Virus record (IMG/VR): IMGVR_UViG_3300034284_000462 | Coordinates: 1-23,093 of that record | DNA: 23,093 nucleotides | From: a virus | Strand: one strand, 5' to 3' | In this document: positions 5,967 to 23,093 of the stretch, one piece after another | Numbering within the stretch: position 1 is the first letter of the stretch | Layout: every line of letters starts with the position of its first letter | The notes under the pieces: generated by a model | The model's database searches: none | Seen by the model: only the letters and a program-made list of their open reading frames with translations | Told to the model about the DNA's origin: nothing | Position numbers and translations under genes: made by a program

Positions 5967-6611
5967 TTATGCGCCTCCTGTAAAATAAAACCGCGCGTGT
6001 AGCTCCGGCCGGTTCGCGAGGAGCCACGGCTCCGCGTCCTCGTAGCACCGTTGCGCGTCCTGCCCGCAGGTCTGCGAGCCGACGTGGTGAACGTAGGCCC
6101 GCGAGATGAAATGCCGCCGCTTCATGTCGAGGCATTGCACGTCGTCGCTGAACCAATTTATCGGCGGGAAATCAACCCACGCGTCGCGGTGAATCCACGC
6201 GCAAATTGGCGCGATCACCGGCGTCTCGACGATATGCCGCTCGGACTGATAGCGCAGGAAGTCGATTTTCCCGCGCCCGCTGCGCACGTTCTGCTCGCCT
6301 CGCGCATAGTCCGAGCGCGTCGCGACGTAGCCGAGATCGGGCACGACCTTGCGCAGATGCGCGACATCCGCGAGGAGCAACGCCCACGTCGTCGGCGTGA
6401 ACACGATGTCGTCGTTGCAGACGACGACCTCCGAATGCGTTATGAAAGCGTTCCGAACTCCGAAGTTGTACGCCTCGCCGAAGCTGCCGCCGACGTTGCG
6501 GAAGATTATCACCTCGACGTCGCGCGGAACGTAGGCCGCGATTGACGCCTGCATGACCGCAAGGCATCGCGCGTTCGTCGTGCAGATCACGATTGCCGGA
6601 GGCGTGCTCAC
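5967..6611 (-). CDS. Small GT-A-fold glycosyltransferase
   Basis: 214 aa from a GTG at 6611 that overlaps the upstream stop by four bases (GTGA). A GGAGG lies six bases before it. Residues 5-12 (PAIVICTT) form the first strand of a nucleotide-sugar-binding fold. At 62-71 VVVCNDDIVF carries the DD metal-binding motif, and near 151-158 INWFSDDV provides a second acidic motif typical of the acceptor/catalytic side. This pattern matches glycosyltransferase family 2-like enzymes that act without a membrane anchor. No transmembrane segment is visible. Coupled to the larger glycosyltransferase before it and placed among virion genes, it may add sugars to a capsid or tail protein; DNA or host glycan are other possible acceptors. 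Confidence 0.78.
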   Translation of the reverse strand: MSTPPAIVICTTNARCLAVMQASIAAYVPRDVEVIIFRNVGGSFGEAYNFGVRNAFITHSEVVVCNDDIVFTPTTWALLLADVAHLRKVVPDLGYVATRSDYARGEQNVRSGRGKIDFLRYQSERHIVETPVIAPICAWIHRDAWVDFPPINWFSDDVQCLDMKRRHFISRAYVHHVGSQTCGQDAQRCYEDAEPWLLANRPELHARFYFTGGA

Positions 6612-7990
6612 TTCGCACCTCCGAGGATTCCCTTGATGTTCTCGGCGTCGATAAGCGTCACGCCGCTTGCCAGCACGAGCTTGTCCCAGTCGTGCGGCGG
6701 CACCATGCCGTCCTCGATGTGCACCGAGATCATCGCGCGCTCTGTTGCCCGCGGCTGTCCTACGTCGTGGATGAACTGCTTCGACATCGCCATCGTTTCC
6801 TTGTCGTCGGGGCGGACAAGGAAAACGTGCTCGACGGTGTCCGGTTGCGCTGCCGTCCCAAGCCACGCTTCACGGAAGGAGACGGAGCGCGTCGAGTCGC
6901 CGAGGGTTTTCTGCGTGAGCCGAATCGCGGGCTTTTGGTGCTTGTGAAAAGCCCACTGAAGCCCGTCCGCCTTCCTTGGATTGTCCGCGAGCCGGTAGGA
7001 CCGCGCAGCGAGATCGAGACCGGCCCAGCCATACCATTTCACCTCGTGCGTCCAAGGCCGGTCCTTCTCCTTTGGCTCTGGTAGCGACATCATGCGCTCC
7101 GCCCAGAAGCTCGCGCGCCTGCCGTCGTTGCGCTCGAACGCCAGCATGATGACGGAAGCGATGGCCTCGCGGCACCACGGGAAGACGCCGTGCGCGCCCA
7201 TAGCGAACTGCAACGCCTCGCGCCGTGACGCGACGAGCCGCGCGAGGTTGAGCTGAACCTCGTAGCGGAATGAGTCGTCGAGATTCGGGAAGGAAAGCGC
7301 GATGCGCCCGAACTGCTCGGCGGCGGTTTTGTTGCCCGCGCAATAGTGCTCTTGGTGGACGTAAAAGTATTGGGTCGCCGACTCCGCGATGCTTCGCCCG
7401 AGGATTGCGAGGTTGCGTTTCCGGTTGGATTGCTTGATCGCGACCGGCTGATGCCGCCAAACCGGCACCGTCCACTCGTTGTGCAGATCGTTCGGCAGCA
7501 GGAGCAGGTTTTCGTGCACGTCGTGGTGCCAGACTCGACCCGAGGCGAACGCTGTGCGCCGGATGATGCGCTCGCGCTGCAGCTTCTTGCCGGTCCCCCG
7601 CACGTCGTAAGGGCATCGGAGCATGAGCACGTCCTCGGTCAGCTCCTTGAGCCTTTCCCGCAGGTCCGTCGCGTCGGTCAGCACGTCGTCGCAGTCGGCC
7701 CAAAGAAGCCAATCCCCGGTGCCTTGGGCGAAGGCTTGGTTCCGCGCCCTCGCGAACGAATCGACGTGCCGCCACGCCTGCGCAGTGACCCCGTTGCGGT
7801 AGTCCGAAAAGACAATCGGGACCGCGTTGCGCTCGCACCAGTCCCGCGCGAGCTGTTCGGTGTCATCCGGTTCCTGCGAGCCGATGGCGCGCACCAGTGA
7901 GAGTTCGTCGATGATGCCGACGAACGAATCGAGCATGGTCTTGATGTGCGCGGTCTCGTTACCGGCAATCACGCAGAGGGAAATCGTCAT
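6608..7990 (-). CDS. Family 2-type glycosyltransferase with helical C-terminal region
   Basis: 460 aa from ATG at 7990; a GGAGG lies 12 bases upstream, after a terminator. Residues 1-10 (MTISLCVIAG) begin a GT-A Rossmann-like domain. RARNQ at 81-85 and DWLLWADCDD at 93-102 are the expected donor-binding and DxD metal motifs of GT2 enzymes. WHHDVHE at 154-160 fits the usual catalytic/acceptor segment. Residues about 190-380 are helical and TPR-like, as in SunS-type peptide glycosyltransferases. The last 75 residues (from about 385, EHVFLVRPDDKETMAM) look like a separate small alpha/beta domain that I do not recognise. Cytoplasmic, no membrane segment. Likely works with the coupled 214-aa enzyme; acceptor unknown. 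Confidence 0.82.
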   Translation of the reverse strand: MTISLCVIAGNETAHIKTMLDSFVGIIDELSLVRAIGSQEPDDTEQLARDWCERNAVPIVFSDYRNGVTAQAWRHVDSFARARNQAFAQGTGDWLLWADCDDVLTDATDLRERLKELTEDVLMLRCPYDVRGTGKKLQRERIIRRTAFASGRVWHHDVHENLLLLPNDLHNEWTVPVWRHQPVAIKQSNRKRNLAILGRSIAESATQYFYVHQEHYCAGNKTAAEQFGRIALSFPNLDDSFRYEVQLNLARLVASRREALQFAMGAHGVFPWCREAIASVIMLAFERNDGRRASFWAERMMSLPEPKEKDRPWTHEVKWYGWAGLDLAARSYRLADNPRKADGLQWAFHKHQKPAIRLTQKTLGDSTRSVSFREAWLGTAAQPDTVEHVFLVRPDDKETMAMSKQFIHDVGQPRATERAMISVHIEDGMVPPHDWDKLVLASGVTLIDAENIKGILGGAK

Positions 7991-8040
7991 GTTGTTGTGT
8001 TGCCTCCGGTGTGGCGAATCGCGCCGCAGCGTCAAAACAA

Positions 8041-8070
8041 AAAGCCCCACGCGGTGAGGCGTGGGGCTTT
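8041..8070 (-). terminator. Intrinsic terminator ending the HNH/cassette unit
   Basis: A perfect 12-bp stem (8041-8052 with 8059-8070, core GCCCCACGC) closes a six-base loop. Read on the minus strand it is followed by TTGTTTTG, completing a T-rich run, so it terminates leftward transcription three bases after the zinc-finger gene's stop. The plus-strand side has only TTT before CGTTAGG, so it is weaker in that direction. Its presence means the two glycosyltransferase genes need read-through or a promoter of their own. Confidence 0.85.
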
Positions 8071-8429: not shown

Positions 8430-8435
8430 TTAGGT
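8339..8435. repeat. attC-like recombination site (imperfect long hairpin)
   Basis: Ends are GCCTAAC (8339-8345) and GTTAGGT (8429-8435), matching RYYYAAC and GTTRRRY and pairing over 7-8 bp. Inside are a 7/7 unpaired spacer, a 5-bp stem (GAGCC 8354-8358 with GGCTC 8416-8420), an uneven 5/4 loop, an 8-bp stem (CGCTGGCG 8364-8371 with CGCCAGCG 8404-8411) and a 32-base variable loop. This is the R box, spacer, L box, variable end layout of integron attC sites. The GAGCCAACGCCGC half resembles common attC L boxes. The HNH stop codon lies within the outer box. Confidence 0.62.
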
Positions 8436-9113
8436 CGATTGAATCGCCAAGTAAAAATCAATCAAAGGCTCGGGCCAAAGGCTTTGAGGAACCGATCGAA
8501 AGTCTTTGTATTCGCTGGAAACCCAAAACGGCGACGAGCTTTTGGATTGATTCACGGGCGCTGGCAAAATCTGCAAATTCTCGTGATGATGCCATCCGCC
8601 GTGCTTGATTGGAATGATGTGGTCAACGTGGTGCTCGACTCCGGTTTGCTTCGTGAGCACTTCGGCGGTTTTTCGCATTTGTTCCTCAATCGAGGAATTG
8701 TGGTCCACGTGGAGTTGGTTGCGAGTTGTCGCGCGACGGTTGGATGATTTGAGTGCGCATCGCGGCCGATTTTCTTTGCTCCATTTTTCTACGCGAGCCT
8801 TCATTTTTTCGCGCACGTCCACCCGCTGAGAGTAACGCTCTTTTGCGTATACATTGAATTTGTTTTTGTATGATTCGGATTTTCTGAGCCTGCGCATTTG
8901 CATCCGCGAATCCTCACATCGCTTGTCAAACACAGCCTTGCTCGCCCAATGCTCGCCTCCTGAATAACCGACGCCGTAACCGCAAAAAATCTTTCCGTCC
9001 GATCTTACGTGGCCGGTCTTGATTCGCTTGTCTGGATTAGCGCGCAGCCATTCGCGCATTTCCAGCGCGCATTTCTTTCGTTCCAAGAATCCTATTTCGT
9101 TCCAAGGGTGCAT
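8430..9113 (-). CDS. HNH endonuclease
   Basis: 227 aa, ATG at 9113, preceded at six bases by AGGA, which belongs to the stem of the terminator upstream. The HNH core is at about 161-191: HHVDHIIPIKHGG, then HHHENLQ and APVNQSK, giving the Asp-His pair at 164-165, central Asn near 179 and final Asn/Lys near 188-191. The N-terminal 130 residues are basic and Lys/Arg-rich with Cys at 44, 66 and 119, likely DNA-binding. Free-standing HNH genes of this size between phage structural genes are usually homing endonucleases; HNH proteins near terminase may also help packaging, but this one is far from it. The TAA stop overlaps the outer box of an attC-like site. Confidence 0.88.
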   Translation of the reverse strand: MHPWNEIGFLERKKCALEMREWLRANPDKRIKTGHVRSDGKIFCGYGVGYSGGEHWASKAVFDKRCEDSRMQMRRLRKSESYKNKFNVYAKERYSQRVDVREKMKARVEKWSKENRPRCALKSSNRRATTRNQLHVDHNSSIEEQMRKTAEVLTKQTGVEHHVDHIIPIKHGGWHHHENLQILPAPVNQSKSSSPFWVSSEYKDFRSVPQSLWPEPLIDFYLAIQST

Positions 9114-17570: not shown

Positions 17571-17621
17571 ACCAAGGCTCGAAACGTCAAACTAGGCTCG
17601 TCTGTTACTATGGAACGAGGG

Positions 17622-18077
17622 TCATTTGCTCGGTTTTGCGGGCGCAGTGTTGGCCGAAGAAAGATGGGCGTCGATTGCCGCACGGAGCGCCGCGATGTCA
17701 GCCTCCATCGCGTTCCAAAGTTTATGCTCTTCCGTGCCGTCGATGCGCCAGTCCTCTTCCGATGGCTGGATCGTCGATTCGTTGCAGTAGTAGTCCGTGC
17801 TTTTCTGCGCAGCGATTGCCAGTTCACCGATTCGCGCGAGCTTTTCCAGTTCGCGGTTGCGCTCGCGGAGTCCGCGCACGATAGCCAGCGCGTGGATTCC
17901 TTCGGCGGTCTTGTCGGCAGGAAAAGCATTGAGGTATGCGCGCGCGGTTTCGTTGCTCACCGGTCCGTCGCCTTCGGCGCGCGCCAGTTTGTGCGCCTCG
18001 GCCTGCTCGGCGATGTGCATCGGAGAGAATACTCCGAGCGAAGTTTCGTAGTATCGTTTGCGTGGGGTTTTAGTCAT
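17622..18077 (-). CDS. Hypothetical helical protein
   Basis: 151 aa, ATG at 18077 overlapping the preceding stop by four bases. The N-terminus is basic (MTKTPRKRYYETSLG). Residues 60-95 form a charged helix likely to be a coiled coil (GIHALAIVRGLRERNRELEK), followed by Cys97 and Trp109/120 in a polar segment and a C-terminal Ala-rich helix. No membrane span or catalytic motif. It is the last of four coupled small genes between terminase and the gpW-like gene. I do not recognise it; small accessory genes at this place in other phages are often host-takeover or packaging modifiers, but nothing here shows that. Confidence 0.7.
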   Translation of the reverse strand: MTKTPRKRYYETSLGVFSPMHIAEQAEAHKLARAEGDGPVSNETARAYLNAFPADKTAEGIHALAIVRGLRERNRELEKLARIGELAIAAQKSTDYYCNESTIQPSEEDWRIDGTEEHKLWNAMEADIAALRAAIDAHLSSANTAPAKPSK

Positions 18078-18253
18078 TGAAGTTTAGTCTTCGTTGGAGG
18101 TTCCAGTATTCGTTTCCAACGCGCCCGAGCCGCCGCTGACGCGGCAGAAGACCGATCCTTGGCGCTCGTGTGCTTCCAGCGCGTTTTCGCGGCTTTCGAC
18201 TGCTGCGCGCTGTCCTTGAAGCGGTGGCCGCACTTTGGGCATTTGTGTTTCAT
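18074..18253 (-). CDS. Small zinc-ribbon, basic protein
   Basis: 59 aa from ATG at 18253, which overlaps the upstream stop by four bases; a longer in-frame extension is read through the previous gene in another frame and is Arg/Gly-rich noise. The start MKHKCPKCGHRFKDSAQQSK holds a CxxC knuckle (Cys5, Cys8) with His3 and His10 as possible further zinc ligands. The remainder is very basic and Ala-rich (AARARWKRILEPP). It probably binds nucleic acid. The same CPxCG knuckle style occurs in many tiny phage proteins of unknown role. Confidence 0.68.
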   Translation of the reverse strand: MKHKCPKCGHRFKDSAQQSKAAKTRWKHTSAKDRSSAASAAARARWKRILEPPTKTKLQ

Positions 18254-18456
18254 GCGATTTCTCGCACGCGTTTTACCACCTCGCGGCCCGGAGCGAACGG
18301 CAAACCGACGGCTTCCGCGATCTGCTGAAGTTCCTCTGCGTGCTTCCGGCTCAAGTATGCGCCATTGCTCCACGCCACCTCTGCCGCGTGGCGTGCATTT
18401 TTCTCCGCCATTTCGCGCCCTTCGGATTCCCACCAAACATCAAAGCCGGTGTTCAT
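18250..18456 (-). CDS. Hypothetical small helical protein
   Basis: 68 aa, ATG at 18456 coupled by ATGA to the gene before and by ATGA to the gene after. It begins MNTGFDVWWESEGREMAEKN, continues as one amphipathic helix (HAAEVAWSNGAYLSRKHAEE), and ends with basic KRVREIA. No Cys, no membrane span. The tight coupling on both sides is the best evidence that it is a real gene. No family recognised. Confidence 0.66.
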   Translation of the reverse strand: MNTGFDVWWESEGREMAEKNARHAAEVAWSNGAYLSRKHAEELQQIAEAVGLPFAPGREVVKRVREIA

Positions 18457-18713
18457 CGTGCAGCCTTTGCTTCCGCGTAGCTGCGATAGGATTTAGTATC
18501 ATGCCCCATGATTTCTACCGTGATGCGGTATGGCCGGAAGCGATTCCCGCTTTCCGCACATTCAACCACGCGACCCATTCCCCATGTATCGCCGATCTCG
18601 TATTCCTGCACCACGAGTTCACTAGTGAGAATCCGTTTTTCATCTCCAATCACCGTGAAGACTGGAACCGGGCGATACTCCCCGATGTATGATTTGCGAA
18701 TTGGGTGTTTCAT
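18453..18713 (-). CDS. Hypothetical beta-rich small protein
   Basis: 86 aa from ATG at 18713. A further in-frame ATG ten codons upstream (18743) lies at the edge of the 18-bp palindrome; the inner one has AGGA very close to it (one base), so neither start has a good ribosome site. The sequence is mostly strands (YIGEYRPVPVFTVIGDEKRI, LVVQEYEIGDTWGMGRVVEC) with a short C-terminal Ala helix (SYAEAKAAR). It looks like a compact barrel-type protein. First gene of the four-gene block downstream of the palindrome. No family recognised. Confidence 0.66.
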   Translation of the reverse strand: MKHPIRKSYIGEYRPVPVFTVIGDEKRILTSELVVQEYEIGDTWGMGRVVECAESGNRFRPYRITVEIMGHDTKSYRSYAEAKAAR

Positions 18714-18725
18714 GTCCTGATATGT

Positions 18726-18743
18726 ATGCGTGCGCGCACGCAT
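18726..18743. promoter_or_regulatory. 18-bp perfect palindrome, possible operator
   Basis: ATGCGTGCGCGCACGCAT reads the same on both strands with no central spacer, so it suits a dimeric DNA-binding protein rather than a hairpin terminator. It lies in the 128-bp gap between the terminase large gene and the next gene. On the minus strand TTGCAA (18748-18743) and TACATA, 16 bases apart, flank and overlap it and could be a weak -35/-10 pair, placing the palindrome in the promoter spacer. The promoter part is speculative. Confidence 0.45.
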
Positions 18744-18841
18744 TGCAAGAAGATTCGGAATTATTTTTCGTGAGTCAGGGAGAGGCCACAGAACCAGCGC
18801 GCCGCAGACAACTCAGGGGTTTCGTCCCTTCGTGTCTGAGC

Positions 18842-20632
18842 CTACTCCTTCGCCGGCGTGTATCGCACGACGTTGGCGATCGTGGCCATGCAGAGCATCA
18901 TCGCTGAGGTGTCGAGCCCGTGATTCGGCGCGTTGCTTTTGACCTCGCGCCACTCCCAGACGCCGGTGCGAATCTCCACCTTGGATTCGCCCTTGAGGTG
19001 TTCGAGATACAGCGGATTGACATCGGCCGGCAGTAGCCATTTGAGATCGCCCTTGGCCTCCAGCGCGTTCGCGAGCAGGTCTTTGAAGTAGTCGCCTGAC
19101 CAGTCGTAGTAGAACACATCCCCGCCTCGGTAGTCGCTCACGCGCGGCTCGGAGAACGGGAAGTTGATGAGCTTGTCGCTTGCATCGTCGCGCATCGTCC
19201 ACGTCTTGCGAGCGTGCCCGCGCATACCTCGCCAGCCGAAGTCCGCGCAGTCACGGTCCACGTCAGCGGGTCGGTAGCCGCGATCTTGAGCGACGCACGC
19301 GTCCTGCACCTTGTAGCGGTATTGCATCTGGCGAAGCTGGTCCCGCGTCTCGATGCGGCCGAAATAAAGTTGCTTGTAGGTCGGGCCCGTCGCCGAGGAG
19401 AACGCGCCGATTTCCACCCACCAGTGATCTTGCTGGCGGTCCACGGCCATGAACCGGATGAGCTCGCCTTCGATACCCTCGCCGTTACTGAACTGGGCGA
19501 CGGTGTAGTCGGACTTGGTGACGAATAGGTTCACGACCTTCTTCTCGACAATCCACGGGCGCGCTTCGCGCTTCGTGCGAAACTCGATCTTCATTTTGTC
19601 ATCGCCTTGACGGACGTGATGATTGTCCGCCTCGCAGAATTCTTCGACGAGTAACCGCATCGGGCGGCTGACGACCGCCTCCACGCGGAAGCTCTGGATT
19701 TCCGCAGGCGCGGTTGGGTTCATCGGCACAAAGCGACCGGCGCGCTTCCAGCCGTTGCGCGTGGTGTCGGTGTCCGGTGACTCATGGCCGCAGTGAGGAC
19801 ACCGAAAGCGACACGAGGCAACCGCCCGCGGCACGTCCCACGTCTCGTCGTCGCGCTTTGCAGCGGCATCCCAGACCACGCCGCCCCGCAAGCCGGTGTC
19901 CTCGTTTTTATCAAGCGCGAAGGCGATGGGGTGCACCTTGCGGCACGACGGACATTCCGTGCTCCACTCCTGCTGATTGCCTTGGCGGAAGCTGGTGTCC
20001 TCCACGTTGCCGGTTTCCAAATCCATGATCGGCGCCTGCGACGTGTTGTAGATTTTCGATCGCCCGACTTCCTCGAAGCGCGAGACGCGGGCGACGGCGT
20101 GGCCGTAAACCTCCTGCCATTTCGGGAGCCAGATTTCGTCGTTGATCTTGTAGCGGATGGACTGCGACTGCTGGCTGGAAAGATTCGCAGGATTGAGCAG
20201 GAAAAAGAAGCCGCCGAAGTAAATCTCGGTCGTCGTCCGGTGCGGCCCGACGCGCGGGAGCATCGCCGCGACTGGCTTGCACGATTCAAAGATCGGGTTC
20301 AGCCGAGACTTCGCGTGCCGGTCGATCATCTCGTCCGTTTGCATCGTCCACGAGATCGGCCCCGCGTCGTTGCAGATGAGCCACGGCACCCAGATGTCGG
20401 CGACGAGCGTCCCGCCGATTTGCACGGCTTTGCGAAAGTGAACGCGGCGGACGAGCGGGTTTTGCAAAGCGTCGAAGATCGGAATGAGCCACGGGGAAAT
20501 CTTGACGTTGAAGGGGCCGCTTGTCGCGTAGGACTCGGGTAAGATGATGTGCTTGCGCGCCCACTCGTAGATCGGCGAGCGATCGGGCTGCGGCAGGCGC
20601 AGGGTGTTGAGGAGAGCGTCGGAGGCGGTCAC
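18842..20632 (-). CDS. Terminase large subunit, GpA type
   Basis: 596 aa from the GTG at 20632, which overlaps the preceding stop by four bases (GTGA); an upstream GTG at 20698 would add 22 residues. The ATPase has a Walker-A-like KAVQIGGT at 68-75 and a Walker B with Asp-Glu in KINDEIWLPKW (D165, E166). A zinc ribbon is formed by CPSC (227, 230) and CPHC (278, 281). The nuclease part has acidic residues in FMAVDRQQDHWW (D398), QDRGYRP (D450) and HGLDTSA (D574). This is the phage lambda gpA layout: it cuts concatemeric DNA and pumps it into the prohead. The P-loop deviates from GxGKT/S, lacking the usual Lys at its end. Confidence 0.93.
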   Translation of the reverse strand: MTASDALLNTLRLPQPDRSPIYEWARKHIILPESYATSGPFNVKISPWLIPIFDALQNPLVRRVHFRKAVQIGGTLVADIWVPWLICNDAGPISWTMQTDEMIDRHAKSRLNPIFESCKPVAAMLPRVGPHRTTTEIYFGGFFFLLNPANLSSQQSQSIRYKINDEIWLPKWQEVYGHAVARVSRFEEVGRSKIYNTSQAPIMDLETGNVEDTSFRQGNQQEWSTECPSCRKVHPIAFALDKNEDTGLRGGVVWDAAAKRDDETWDVPRAVASCRFRCPHCGHESPDTDTTRNGWKRAGRFVPMNPTAPAEIQSFRVEAVVSRPMRLLVEEFCEADNHHVRQGDDKMKIEFRTKREARPWIVEKKVVNLFVTKSDYTVAQFSNGEGIEGELIRFMAVDRQQDHWWVEIGAFSSATGPTYKQLYFGRIETRDQLRQMQYRYKVQDACVAQDRGYRPADVDRDCADFGWRGMRGHARKTWTMRDDASDKLINFPFSEPRVSDYRGGDVFYYDWSGDYFKDLLANALEAKGDLKWLLPADVNPLYLEHLKGESKVEIRTGVWEWREVKSNAPNHGLDTSAMMLCMATIANVVRYTPAKE

Positions 20633-20865
20633 GCGATCAGGTGGATCGCCCACGTCGAAAACGCTTCGCTCTGACTTATGCCGCGAGCTTTGCACCACGC
20701 GCGGAACCGCGCAGCGACTTGCGGACGGAGGCGCACTGTCACGCCTACGGCACGTTGATCGGGTGCGAGCGGCTTTCGGCCTGCGCCTTTGCGTTTGCCG
20801 CCTTGCTTAGTTCGCGAGGCCGATGCTGGCAAGGTAGCGACGGCGGTTATCTTTTTTAATTTCAT
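20629..20865 (-). CDS. Small basic protein with GGKRKGAGRKP motif
   Basis: 78 aa from ATG at 20865; an in-frame ATG at 20886 would add seven residues. It begins MKLKKITAVATLPASASRTK, then carries GGKRKGAGRKP (about 22-32), a motif common at the N-terminus of small phage DNA-associated proteins, and a C-terminal part (VGVTVRLRPQVAARFRAWCK, then ISQSEAFSTWAI) resembling a ribbon-helix-helix: a strand ending in RLRP, then two helices. It ends in a 4-base overlap with the large terminase start. It overlaps the previous small gene by 59 bases in another frame. Probably DNA-binding; possibly a regulator or packaging accessory. Confidence 0.68.
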   Translation of the reverse strand: MKLKKITAVATLPASASRTKQGGKRKGAGRKPLAPDQRAVGVTVRLRPQVAARFRAWCKARGISQSEAFSTWAIHLIA

Positions 20866-21025
20866 TGTAGGTTGGATATTTTGCATCGGCTTCGCACTCG
20901 GCTTTCACCGCGAGTTGATATTCAGCAAACCCAGATTCTGCTTCAGCGTCGGTTTTCGCAGCGTTAAATTTTGCAAAAGCAATTACGGTGTTTTTCTCTG
21001 CGGCGATGCGGGCGATGTGTTTCAT
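20807..21025 (-). CDS. Hypothetical small charged protein
   Basis: 72 aa, ATG at 21025, with GGGTGATGGC directly upstream as a possible weak ribosome site. It is one charged Ala/Glu/Lys-rich helical sequence (MKHIARIAAEKNTVIAFAKF, AEAESGFAEYQLAVKAECEA) ending in a basic NRRRYLASIGLAN. No membrane span, no metal motif beyond a single Cys. It follows the small terminase by 42 bases and overlaps the next gene out of frame. No family recognised. The clean helical composition favours a real gene. Confidence 0.6.
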   Translation of the reverse strand: MKHIARIAAEKNTVIAFAKFNAAKTDAEAESGFAEYQLAVKAECEADAKYPTYNEIKKDNRRRYLASIGLAN

Positions 21026-21067
21026 GCCATCACCCTATTCACCGTTTGATTGATTGCAAGCACTATT

Positions 21068-21712
21068 TCAAACAATCGCATCCGCCCCCCGCGACCGATC
21101 CAGCGCCTCGCCCTCAAACGTCGCGATGTTCGCGTTGATCACCTCGCGAATCTCGCCGAGGATGACGCCGCCCTCGACGTTCAGCTCCGCCGCGTTCATC
21201 CCGACGCCGCGCGGCCCCAGCTCGACCTCTAGCTTGAGGCGCAGGAGCAGGTTGAGCTTTTGCCCGAGCGTGACCAGCATCGCCTCGACGACTTCGCGGT
21301 CGATGACGTCGCCGGCCTCGCGCTCGTTCTTGGAGCGGGCGAGGCGGATTTGCTCGCGCATGAGCTCGGCTTTGAGCTCGGCGAGGTTCTTTGTCGCCAC
21401 GTCCTTCCCGATCACGTTCTCCGCGCAAAACTGCTGCCACGCGGCCAAGTTTTCGCGGCGTCCGTCCTCGTGCTTTTTCGGTGCGTCGGGGAATCGGTTG
21501 CGGGCGTCGTAGATGGCTTGGCGGGACAGGCCGAGTTCTTTGGCGAGCGTGCTAAGGTCTTTCACCCAGCCGTCGAGCTGGCCGGTCTGGAAATCGTTTA
21601 GCGCCTTGCGCTCCGAGGTCGTCAGCGTCTTGCCGGCCTTGAGTTTTACCGCGATGTTTTGGACGTTGCGGCGGGCGAGGATTTCGCTCGGTGATTGCTC
21701 GGGCTCGGTCAT
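21068..21712 (-). CDS. Terminase small subunit (Nu1-like)
   Basis: 214 aa, ATG at 21712, one base after the glycosyltransferase stop. Residues 53-75 (LSTLAKELGLSRQAIYDARN) are a helix-turn-helix of the kind in small terminases, followed by a polar HEDGRRENLAAWQQFC stretch. Residues 105-150 are a charged helix (AELKAELMREQIRLARSKNE, then EREAGDVIDREVVEAML), the usual oligomerisation core. The C-terminus is acidic/hydrophobic. It would recognise the packaging site and load the large terminase, whose gene lies two small genes downstream. The composition and length are normal for the family. Confidence 0.8.
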   Translation of the reverse strand: MTEPEQSPSEILARRNVQNIAVKLKAGKTLTTSERKALNDFQTGQLDGWVKDLSTLAKELGLSRQAIYDARNRFPDAPKKHEDGRRENLAAWQQFCAENVIGKDVATKNLAELKAELMREQIRLARSKNEREAGDVIDREVVEAMLVTLGQKLNLLLRLKLEVELGPRGVGMNAAELNVEGGVILGEIREVINANIATFEGEALDRSRGADAIV

Positions 21713-21713
21713 T

Positions 21714-22427
21714 TTAGAAGTTGAGAGCGATGGAATACTCGGAGCCGCCGCGAATTATTTGCCGGATGTAACTCGGGTATTTTGCGACGAGTTTCTTGAT
21801 GCACTCCGCTTCCATCTTTTGCGTTCGGTATGATTTACATCCGCCTTCATTCACCCAGTGCGAGTTTGCCCAATAGATGTAACGACAGCACAAAATTCCC
21901 CCGCGCTCCTTGATGTGACGAAGGCAAAGCTCGTAGTCCTCCTTCACGGGAAAATCTTCGTCGAAATAGTATGTGCCATCGTTGATAATTCCCATGCAGG
22001 ATGCCGTGACGTAGCTCCGAAACAAAAATGGTTTGTAGGGGTAAACCGAACGAAGAGCCCCGTCCGTTGAAACCCCCCATATCTTGAACTGAAGTTGATC
22101 TGTTAAATCAAATAGCTTCTGAAATTCTTTGACCCATTGAGCTTCTGTCAGCGCCTTGTCTTTCGCTTTGTTCTCATAGAGCTTCTTCCATCCCTGCGCC
22201 TTTACGTCGTCGTCAATGAAAACGACCCTTTCTTGTCCGCAGTTTTTCAGAATCCAGTTCCTTGTCTTTGTGATTCCTTTCACCTCGTCAGGCACTCCGA
22301 CCACATTCGCGCTCGTCCTTCGGTATTGATTCACCTCGGAGTTAGGCACGAAAAGCACCCCTGACCTCAACAGCTTGTCTGTTTTCGTCTCTCCAGCACG
22401 ACCCTTGCTTGGTATTGCGATGATCAT
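21714..22427 (-). CDS. Glycosyltransferase resembling TET-associated glycosyltransferase (TAGT)
   Basis: 237 aa from ATG at 22427, chosen because it overlaps the ParB-like gene's stop by four bases; a longer in-frame reading is antisense-quality sequence. MIIAIPSKGRAGETKT at 1-16 is the first strand of a GT-A fold. RVVFIDDDV (67-75) has the metal-binding DDD. FDEDFPVKEDYELCLRHI (155-172) holds a catalytic-type acidic motif, and WANSHWVNEGG (186-196) a late conserved patch. The IPSKGR start with the DDD motif matches phage TAGT enzymes described with TET/JBP-type DNA hypermodification systems. The substrate may be modified DNA bases; no TET or methyltransferase gene is visible in the window, so this is not shown. 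Confidence 0.78.
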   Translation of the reverse strand: MIIAIPSKGRAGETKTDKLLRSGVLFVPNSEVNQYRRTSANVVGVPDEVKGITKTRNWILKNCGQERVVFIDDDVKAQGWKKLYENKAKDKALTEAQWVKEFQKLFDLTDQLQFKIWGVSTDGALRSVYPYKPFLFRSYVTASCMGIINDGTYYFDEDFPVKEDYELCLRHIKERGGILCCRYIYWANSHWVNEGGCKSYRTQKMEAECIKKLVAKYPSYIRQIIRGGSEYSIALNF

Positions 22428-23038
22428 TTTTTTACGCGTTTGAACGGTAACACGCGCTCGGTTCCGACAGCATCGAACGCCGACCCCTCCTTGTATCCAC
22501 CTCTCCGCACTTTTTTGAGATCGAAGTATGCGACCATCTCGTCCCACTCGCTTTCATTCTCCGCGATGATGAGCACATATTCTTTGTCTGGTGCCACTTG
22601 GATGCTTTGCTCGTGCACCACTTCGTCCACCTCGTCCATGATCGCGTCGGCTTCCATCATGTCGTCGATTTCCATTTGATTGAATCCGATGTCGTCGGAT
22701 GCGACGCCAGCAGCAAGAAGTGATTTGATTACGTCGGACAGCGAATCTTCCCACTCCGCCAGCTCCGCCGTGCGGTTGTCCGCGATTGCAAACGCCGTAG
22801 CCTCGACGCCCGAAAGTTCGGTCCGCACGATCTGGATCTCGGTCCAGCCGAGTTCCTGCGCCGCGGTGAGCGTTCCGTTGCCGGCCAAGACGATGCCCTT
22901 GGCGTCCACGACGATCGGTTTCTGCTGACCGAACTTGCGCAGCGACGCCTTTATCGCGTCGAGATTTCGGCGCGAGTGTTTGCGGACGTTCGACGGGTCG
23001 AGCGAAAGCTCGGCGAGGGCGATGGTCTGGTGGTTCAT
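22424..23038 (-). CDS. ParB-like nuclease-fold protein
   Basis: 204 aa, ATG at 23038, overlapping the upstream stop by four bases. Residues 1-75 form a ParB/Srx-type domain: LSLDPSNVRKHSRRNLDAIK at 11-30, PIVVDAKGIVLAGNGTLTAA at 41-60 (the GNGTL segment stands where ParB has its GxHR motif) and QELGW. AIADNRTAELAEWED (85-98) is the helix commonly following it in phage ParB proteins. The final 55 residues (EYVLIIAENESEWDEM, then RRGGYKEGSAFDAVG) are a second small domain. Such proteins occur beside methyltransferases or TAGT glycosyltransferases in phages, where they may act in DNA binding or modification. No methylase domain is fused here. Confidence 0.84.
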   Translation of the reverse strand: MNHQTIALAELSLDPSNVRKHSRRNLDAIKASLRKFGQQKPIVVDAKGIVLAGNGTLTAAQELGWTEIQIVRTELSGVEATAFAIADNRTAELAEWEDSLSDVIKSLLAAGVASDDIGFNQMEIDDMMEADAIMDEVDEVVHEQSIQVAPDKEYVLIIAENESEWDEMVAYFDLKKVRRGGYKEGSAFDAVGTERVLPFKRVKK

Positions 23039-23093
23039 ACGTCAAGATTGGTAAAAAAACGAAATGGGGGAAATTGCTCTAGGTCGCTTAACC
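23035..23093 (-). CDS. C-terminal end of an unknown upstream gene
   Basis: The frame open to the window edge encodes LSDLEQFPPFRFFTNLDV followed by TGA at 23035-23037. The stop overlaps the ParB-like ATG by four bases, the junction style seen throughout this operon, and the composition is protein-like, unlike the other two frames (one ends at TAA at once). Nothing about its function can be said. As the gene just before ParB and TAGT, it might encode a DNA-modification enzyme. Confidence 0.55.
   Translation of the reverse strand, partial: LSDLEQFPPFRFFTNLDV

Follow-up and report, generated by a model that had tools for sequence, protein, structure and literature searches.

The left end of the window, as we call the whole 23,093-nt stretch of DNA from an uncultured bacterial virus analysed here, raises the question of what a TAGT glycosyltransferase modifies when its gene lies between a ParB-like gene and the terminase genes of a phage. 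The question reaches beyond this genome. According to PMC13216743, 288 of 753 phage genomes have solitary TAGT homologs, a set expected to include new transferases. If the explanation favoured below is right, the locus offers a clear example for working out the targets of such TAGTs.

Results

Gene order and identity of the glycosyltransferase

On the minus strand the order is cos-ParB-TAGT-TerS-TerL, with a 55-nt leader running from 23093 to ParB (Table 1; ORFs were chosen mechanically). The original prediction of a ParB-like ORF and a 237-aa glycosyltransferase with IPSKGR and DDD motifs upstream of terminase was borne out, the terminase gene being TerS and all three genes being consecutive on the minus strand. 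It had seen the three genes joined by ATGA overlaps; this is correct for the ParB/TAGT junction only, the TAGT/TerS joint consisting of the TAGT stop TAA, one base and the TerS ATG.

Table 1. Features at the left end of the window, in window positions.
Feature	Position	Strand	Basis
ParB-like protein, 204 aa (head and tail)	22424..23038	-	ORF call, profile, model, fold comparison
TAGT glycosyltransferase, 237 aa; DDD 22206-22214, ED 21936-21941	21714..22427	-	PF20691, phrog_842, invariant residues, GT-A model
Terminase small subunit (TerS), 214 aa	21068..21712	-	phrog_57, E 4e-7
Terminase large subunit (TerL), GpA type; start codon uncertain	18842..20698	-	PF05876, E 6.7e-23
Exchangeable cassette (remainder of ParB and TAGT)	21714..22745	-	48-52% G+C, flanks 64%
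ParB head, about codons 1-98, constant in lineage	22746..23038	-	DNA homology to other-cargo loci ends at minus-strand base 348
P motif GNGT replacing GxxR, inside ParB head	22871-22882	-	81/81 lineage heads
ParB residues 137-204, the tail specific to window-type TAGT	22427..22630	-	tail profile 11/11 TAGT-1 loci, 0/70 others; conserved
Non-coding leader, cos to ParB	23039..23081	-	houses the originally predicted 'partial gene'
Left cos end, 5'-GGTTAAGCGACC on minus strand; contig terminus	23082..23093	-	12-nt overhang length is a guess

The 237-aa protein belongs to the TAGT family, as had been proposed: it scores 54.2 bits (E 2.5e-14) against PF20691, well above the curated cut-off of 27.5, and matches phrog_842 (E 2.7e-24), and its residues D72-D74 and E163-D164 are invariant across 19 sequences. 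Its AlphaFold2 model (pLDDT 85.6, pTM 0.86) has a GT-A fold with the conserved acidic motif and resembles viral TAGTs with TM values up to about 0.8, among them a Klebsiella phage beta-glucosyl-HMC-alpha-glucosyltransferase. In the PDB the model finds GT-A enzymes, TarP first, the nearest solved structures being teichoic-acid and other glycan glycosyltransferases. A family-2 glycosyltransferase (PF00535; 6608-8050, minus strand), separate from TAGT, is encoded among the virion genes, where together with a second glycosyltransferase-like ORF recognised by eye it takes up window positions 5967-8050 (minus strand); Pfam family-2 glycosyltransferases occur in relatives too (4 of 41 ORFs).

A genome end instead of a partial gene

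The original prediction had further read a partial gene at 23035-23093 and had suggested an oxidising or methylating enzyme just past 23093. A ParB search yielded 80 related contigs. In 50 of them the very first letter is the initial G of a motif resembling GGTTAAGCGACCT; another 15 have the motif internally, where it mostly follows G-rich sequence containing GACTTCTAGG or a variant (a loose cos match in L106 was left out of these 15), and the far side of contigs joined across cos is the right end of the genome. The other 15 include L059 (+1 base), L091 (same position, variant letters), several contigs that start slightly later, a few more distant relatives, and L034 and L099, whose leading letters resemble a sequencing adaptor. 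The window thus has a fixed genome end beside its terminase genes, as in a lambda-type cos (50 of 80 contigs start there, 15 are joined). The cohesive end of lambda is GGGCGGCGACCT, and the left end here behaves as a lambda-like cohesive end would; a 12-nt 5' overhang is a guess from L126, a single, chimeric right-end contig with 12 nt beyond the cut and then unrelated sequence.

Because the contig end is the end of the linear genome, the supposed partial gene is the terminal leader, that is, the 55 nt preceding ParB; a run of about 18 codons with no stop arises by chance in roughly 4 of 10 cases ((61/64)^18). A gene cut at this point was accordingly rejected in favour of a genome end with a conserved motif. 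The genome end also leaves no room for a missing enzyme right past 23093, and base-modification families were absent from the 31 right-arm ORFs of two relatives, one a carrier of a second kind of TAGT (TAGT-2) and one of a methylase, neither of which carries the TAGT of the window. The original interpretation was sound as to family and broad role and misdirected as to the place to look next; the more telling context, overlooked at the time, consists of the terminase neighbourhood and the cassette exchange.

An exchangeable cassette of DNA-modifying enzymes

The lineage set comprised 81 loci with ParB and TerS, the window included. Between these two genes lie a ParB-fused methylase (28 loci), Mom (17), a C5 methylase (12, of which six carry a second SAM methylase), a window-like TAGT (11), TAGT-2 (6), an ABC-ATPase/GNAT (5) or other cargo (2); one of these last two (L095), counted inside the 70 other-cargo loci, is itself a TAGT-2 (63% over 293 aa). 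In these counts each of several near-identical contigs counts separately (L002 matches the window letter for letter along its whole length). L001, which is the window, and L032 and L033, which sit on the contigs of L011 and L012, are omitted from the cargo counts; families were named from a single representative of each cluster, and the cluster of 13 TAGTs includes L013 and L014, whose terminase differs. The representative cargos are all DNA-modifying or predicted to be so (N6/N4 and C5 methylases, Mom, TAGT and ABC-GNAT), and for an ABC-GNAT protein DNA acylation has been predicted before (PMC7824862, in excerpt).

When the left end of the window was compared with these loci by BLASTN, the match covered the leader and ParB codons 1-98, broke off, and resumed with TerS and TerL; none of the 70 other-cargo loci matched inside the cassette. 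The left edge lies at base 348 in 41 loci and at 343-412 in the other 29, and the right edge, present at this place in 69 loci, begins at 1365-1460, the TerS start being 1382. The G+C content of the window cassette is 48-52% versus 64% in the ParB head and TerS, and in each cargo class the cassette mean is below the TerS mean. A quick terL tree with 72 rows, 61 of them different, and SH-aLRT support only needs at least 26 changes of cargo; 300 shuffles gave 35-45 changes, which indicates that cargo is partly inherited and often exchanged. Well-supported neighbours with unlike cargo are L058 (C5 methylase) and L003 (TAGT), and L074 (Mom) and L059 (methylase). At the level of aligned loci it is thus shown that sister phages replace the ParB tail and the enzyme, as one block, with other DNA-modifying enzymes.

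Similarity to the DNA of sister phages also breaks at 20634-21068, between TerS and TerL, and at 17603-18842, between TerL and portal. An HNH/endonuclease VII-like gene (8430-9113, minus strand; phrog_1035, E 2.1e-11) adjoins the presumed capsid gene. Because one lineage contig (record G040, 48.8 kb, with L111-L113) includes an SU10-type capsid gene, it is a possible chimera, and nothing was drawn from it. The one GTDB match is a contig of a Betaproteobacteria MAG (L144), on which no host gene was recognised by eye.

Head and tail of the ParB-like protein

The ParB-like protein scores 22.6 bits against PF02195, under the cut-off of 26.3, and matches PHROG ParB families down to E 1.7e-36; its model (pLDDT 79) finds Noc and ParB by Foldseek (E about 1e-6), and the tail model is weak, with block means of pLDDT between 43 and 80 from residue 131 onwards. 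GNGT stands in place of GxxR in 81 of 81 lineage heads, and the arginine is kept in all 17 readable TAGT-associated ParBs elsewhere in the set. According to the excerpt of PMC12704722, nucleotide binding is lost when the P-motif (GxxR) arginine is changed to alanine. Since GNGT occupies this motif throughout the lineage, the ParB of the window is not filed as an NTP switch, and an NTP-gated clamp, considered for the lineage, was rejected.

A TAGT-type tail profile was built on 12 TAGT-linked ParBs of non-lineage phages, using their C-terminal 85 residues. With E values of about 1e-22 to 1e-24 it matched every one of the 11 window-type TAGT loci, against none of the 70 others. Similarly, a TAGT-2 tail profile from six annotated TAGT-2 phages found 6 of 6 TAGT-2 loci as well as L095, and no further locus at E<1e-3. 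In Psychrobacter phage Y8A the ParB precedes a Mom-like gene, and its tail matched 12 of the 17 Mom loci, leaving five Mom loci unmatched, and no other class. Between the window ParB and that of phage L013 the head is 33% and the tail 72% shared. DNA distances of the head correlate with those of terL (r 0.848) and terS (r 0.888), compared with r 0.112 for cargo; linkage to the neighbouring terS accounts for at least part of this pattern. These comparisons of aligned proteins and genes show the ParB to be a chimera, the tail of which tracks the enzyme class and the head the phage lineage. The coupling of TAGT to ParB that had been proposed is supported, and the fusion of methylase to ParB in 28 of the 81 loci argues for a physical partnership of ParB and enzyme. 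Phage ParB domains are frequently fused to N6N4 methylases (PMC12704722, in excerpt).

Terminase neighbourhood beyond the lineage

ParB lies directly upstream in all 28 window-type TAGT loci with upstream DNA present. Terminase follows TAGT in all 30 loci: the 12 lineage loci were each recognised by a TerS match, and 18 loci lie outside. The 18 outside loci were recruited by TAGT and not by terminase; in 17 a TerS and/or TerL ORF follows TAGT within about 450 bases, and in the eighteenth (L015) TAGT is fused to TerL. The TerS and TerL queries came from the same loci, and their family was assigned separately by Pfam; the families found among these neighbours differ (Terminase_3, Terminase_6N and GpA). 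In L015 (672-3416) TAGT and TerL form a single 915-aa ORF. In its relative L146 (71% to L015) they are separate with an ATGA overlap, so the fusion is a single case that may be recent or an error.

Among ten annotated TAGT-2 phages, chosen from 30 listed of 38, a terminase is annotated within three genes downstream in seven (c5, NTR1, phi jlb1, Porphyromonas 005a, Ld17, SPF_0923, there as 'putative phage terminase', and 666R9) and nine genes on in HHTV-2; none was present in the stretch read of the two large phages pv27 and Aeromonas 65. ParB is directly upstream in seven of the ten, that of NTR1 being our reading of an unnamed ORF. Ten of 12 isolates read for ParB context have an annotated terminase downstream in the stretch, the exceptions being Twister6 and NatCom_24097; this is not a rate, because the isolates were hand-picked from 40 listed of 426, several of them for lying near a record end. 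The link of TAGT to terminase is not universal, as Quhwah, pv27 and Aeromonas 65 show none in the stretch read. In Mycobacterium phage Typha (L156) queuosine-type genes are annotated between ParB and terminase, and in Arthrobacter phage LiSara (L160) a PAPS-reductase-like gene and a methyltransferase.

Search for precursor-base enzymes

TET/JBP (PF12851) was found in none of 30 TAGT records, mostly fragments, with no control genome matching, and in none of 16 further records, again mostly fragments, with two controls matching below the cut-off. The thymidylate-synthase type (PF00303), a family that includes the base hydroxymethylases, was found in none of 36 records, mostly fragments, with 9 of 14 controls matching. 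A C5 methylase was present in 3 of the 36 records, none of them from the lineage.

Discussion

A modification gene between a ParB-like gene and terminase is not new in itself. The site between ParB and the terminase large subunit has been called the ParB-Tls locus, other DNA-modifying genes occur there, and it was suggested that ParB directs modification during packaging (PMC6536676, in excerpt, citing Iyer et al. 2013 for the name and the suggestion). We therefore rejected novelty for the order as such. The window locus is of the ParB-Tls type, with which it shares the ParB-like gene, the DNA-modification gene or genes, terminase and the ParB-methylase fusion. It differs from what that excerpt describes in its place at a cos end, in the exchange of whole enzyme classes at fixed edges, in the enzyme-specific ParB tails and in the head lacking the P-motif arginine, and through this variant organisation the mechanism becomes testable. 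A partial literature search, not worded for each point, turned up no mention of the exchange of alleles at fixed edges, the enzyme-specific tails, the loss of the arginine or the cos-end site; these may still be in print.

We give about an even chance to the following explanation, which starts from the gene comparisons: a DNA-modification cassette of ParB-Tls type sits at the cos end of a phage with GpA-type terminase, ParB would be a two-part adaptor, and phage DNA would be glycosylated before or during packaging. The tail would hold the enzyme, and the head would hold a lineage-specific partner, such as the packaging complex, cos DNA or another. The ParB-TAGT complex would be made late and would glycosylate phage DNA before or while terminase packages it, and the resulting virions would carry sugar-modified DNA resisting restriction. 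As the head is without the P-motif arginine, ParB would be expected to act as a fixed adaptor and not as an NTP-gated clamp. This explanation is favoured by the tail specificity shown, in profile matches, with three enzyme classes (TAGT-1, TAGT-2 and Mom), and also by the block exchange, the tracking of terL and terS by the head, the ParB-methylase fusions and the recurrent place beside terminase. Against it, the link between head and terS may be plain physical linkage, the searches described above found no hydroxylated-base enzyme, TAGT has no terminase in the stretch read of Quhwah and two large phages, the L015 fusion is a single case, and the predicted tail fold is of low confidence. A bolder version, in which a head no longer binding NTP docks on the terminase/cos complex, tail-matched enzymes are interchangeable and TAGT puts its sugar on ordinary bases without a hydroxylated precursor, seems improbable to us; its last point is drawn from the interchange of TAGT with enzymes that need no such precursor, and the whole, if true, would mean that the lineage changes its virion DNA chemistry by one recombination.

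The two-part cassette probably puts sugars on phage DNA, and DNA modification, the role first proposed, is to judge from the comparisons the likeliest function of TAGT. That its target is instead a protein or a cell-surface glycan is very unlikely in our estimation: GT-A enzymes are versatile, the nearest solved structures act on teichoic acid and other glycans, and the virion gene cluster has its separate family-2 enzyme (6608-8050), but Pfam, PHROG and fold all group the protein with DNA TAGTs and the alternatives in its slot are DNA-modifying enzymes. We regard as similarly remote a restriction-modification-like pair in which ParB would be a nuclease directed at host or rival DNA and the enzyme would shield the phage. 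A Bacillus cereus ParB-methylase does nick DNA (cited in PMC5512222, in excerpt); however, the conserved arginine that the same excerpt puts in the active-site pocket is missing in 81 of 81 heads.

As to which base would receive the sugar, classical hypermodification, in which TAGT glycosylates a hydroxylated pyrimidine supplied by an enzyme encoded in the right half of the genome, is a real possibility that falls somewhat short of even, and it is compatible with the two-part adaptor. The right half lies outside the 23,093-nt window, and T-even TAGTs add glucose onto already glucosylated hydroxymethylcytosine (PMC13216743 and PMC13390438, in excerpts). This is countered by the lack of TET/JBP in 46 records (poor control) and of PF00303 in 36 (good control), mostly fragments in both cases, and by the interchange of TAGT with enzymes acting on ordinary bases. 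The part given to packaging is questioned by another account, namely that the cassette is a late pair of modification genes placed ahead of terminase because late transcription crosses cos at this point, ParB aiding the enzyme on DNA with no link to packaging. Late expression is established for Mom of phage Mu and fits this account, as does the chance that the head-terS correlation is linkage. A late activator is named, in the context of Mom and phage Mu, in the excerpt of PMC10434257. The recurrence of the order ParB-enzyme-terminase with TerLs of different families argues against timing as the whole explanation, which we consider rather unlikely.

If the two-part ParB with its packaging partner is right, the 2013 proposal that ParB steers DNA modification during packaging becomes directly testable, because head and tail are separable for partner tests, and this phage group would alter its virion DNA chemistry via one cassette swap at a fixed place. 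Cultured phages to which the comparison points for virion DNA analysis are Lactobacillus c5, phi jlb1, Escherichia 666R9 and Psychrobacter Y8A.

Among known systems, the match of Lactobacillus phage c5 (EU340421.2) to the arrangement of the window is nearly complete, with an annotated cos at 1-11, ParB, an unnamed gene matching TAGT-2, two small ORFs, TerL and portal; its TAGT is of the second kind, its TerL is another one and its ParB retains GxxR. The T-even beta-glucosyl-HMC-alpha-glucosyltransferase (PF20691) is alike in family and fold, whereas T-even phages make the hydroxymethylated base and have another glycosyltransferase (PMC13216743, in excerpt), neither of which was seen here with the TET/JBP and PF00303 searches, which covered mostly fragments with poor controls for TET/JBP. 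In the cultured Microbacterium phage Quhwah group ParB and TAGT are one gene apart and the ParB tail is weakly like that of the window (E 0.012); unlike in the window, a UDP-glucose dehydrogenase comes next and no terminase follows in the stretch read. Psychrobacter phage vB_PmaS_Y8A has ParB, an unnamed gene, TerS and TerL in this order, but its cargo is Mom and not TAGT: the unnamed gene (L172:3501-4154, from ParB to TerS) is 49% identical to the Mom of the lineage. In the excerpt of the Y8A paper the ParB gene is read as a partition gene and a different ORF is named Mom.
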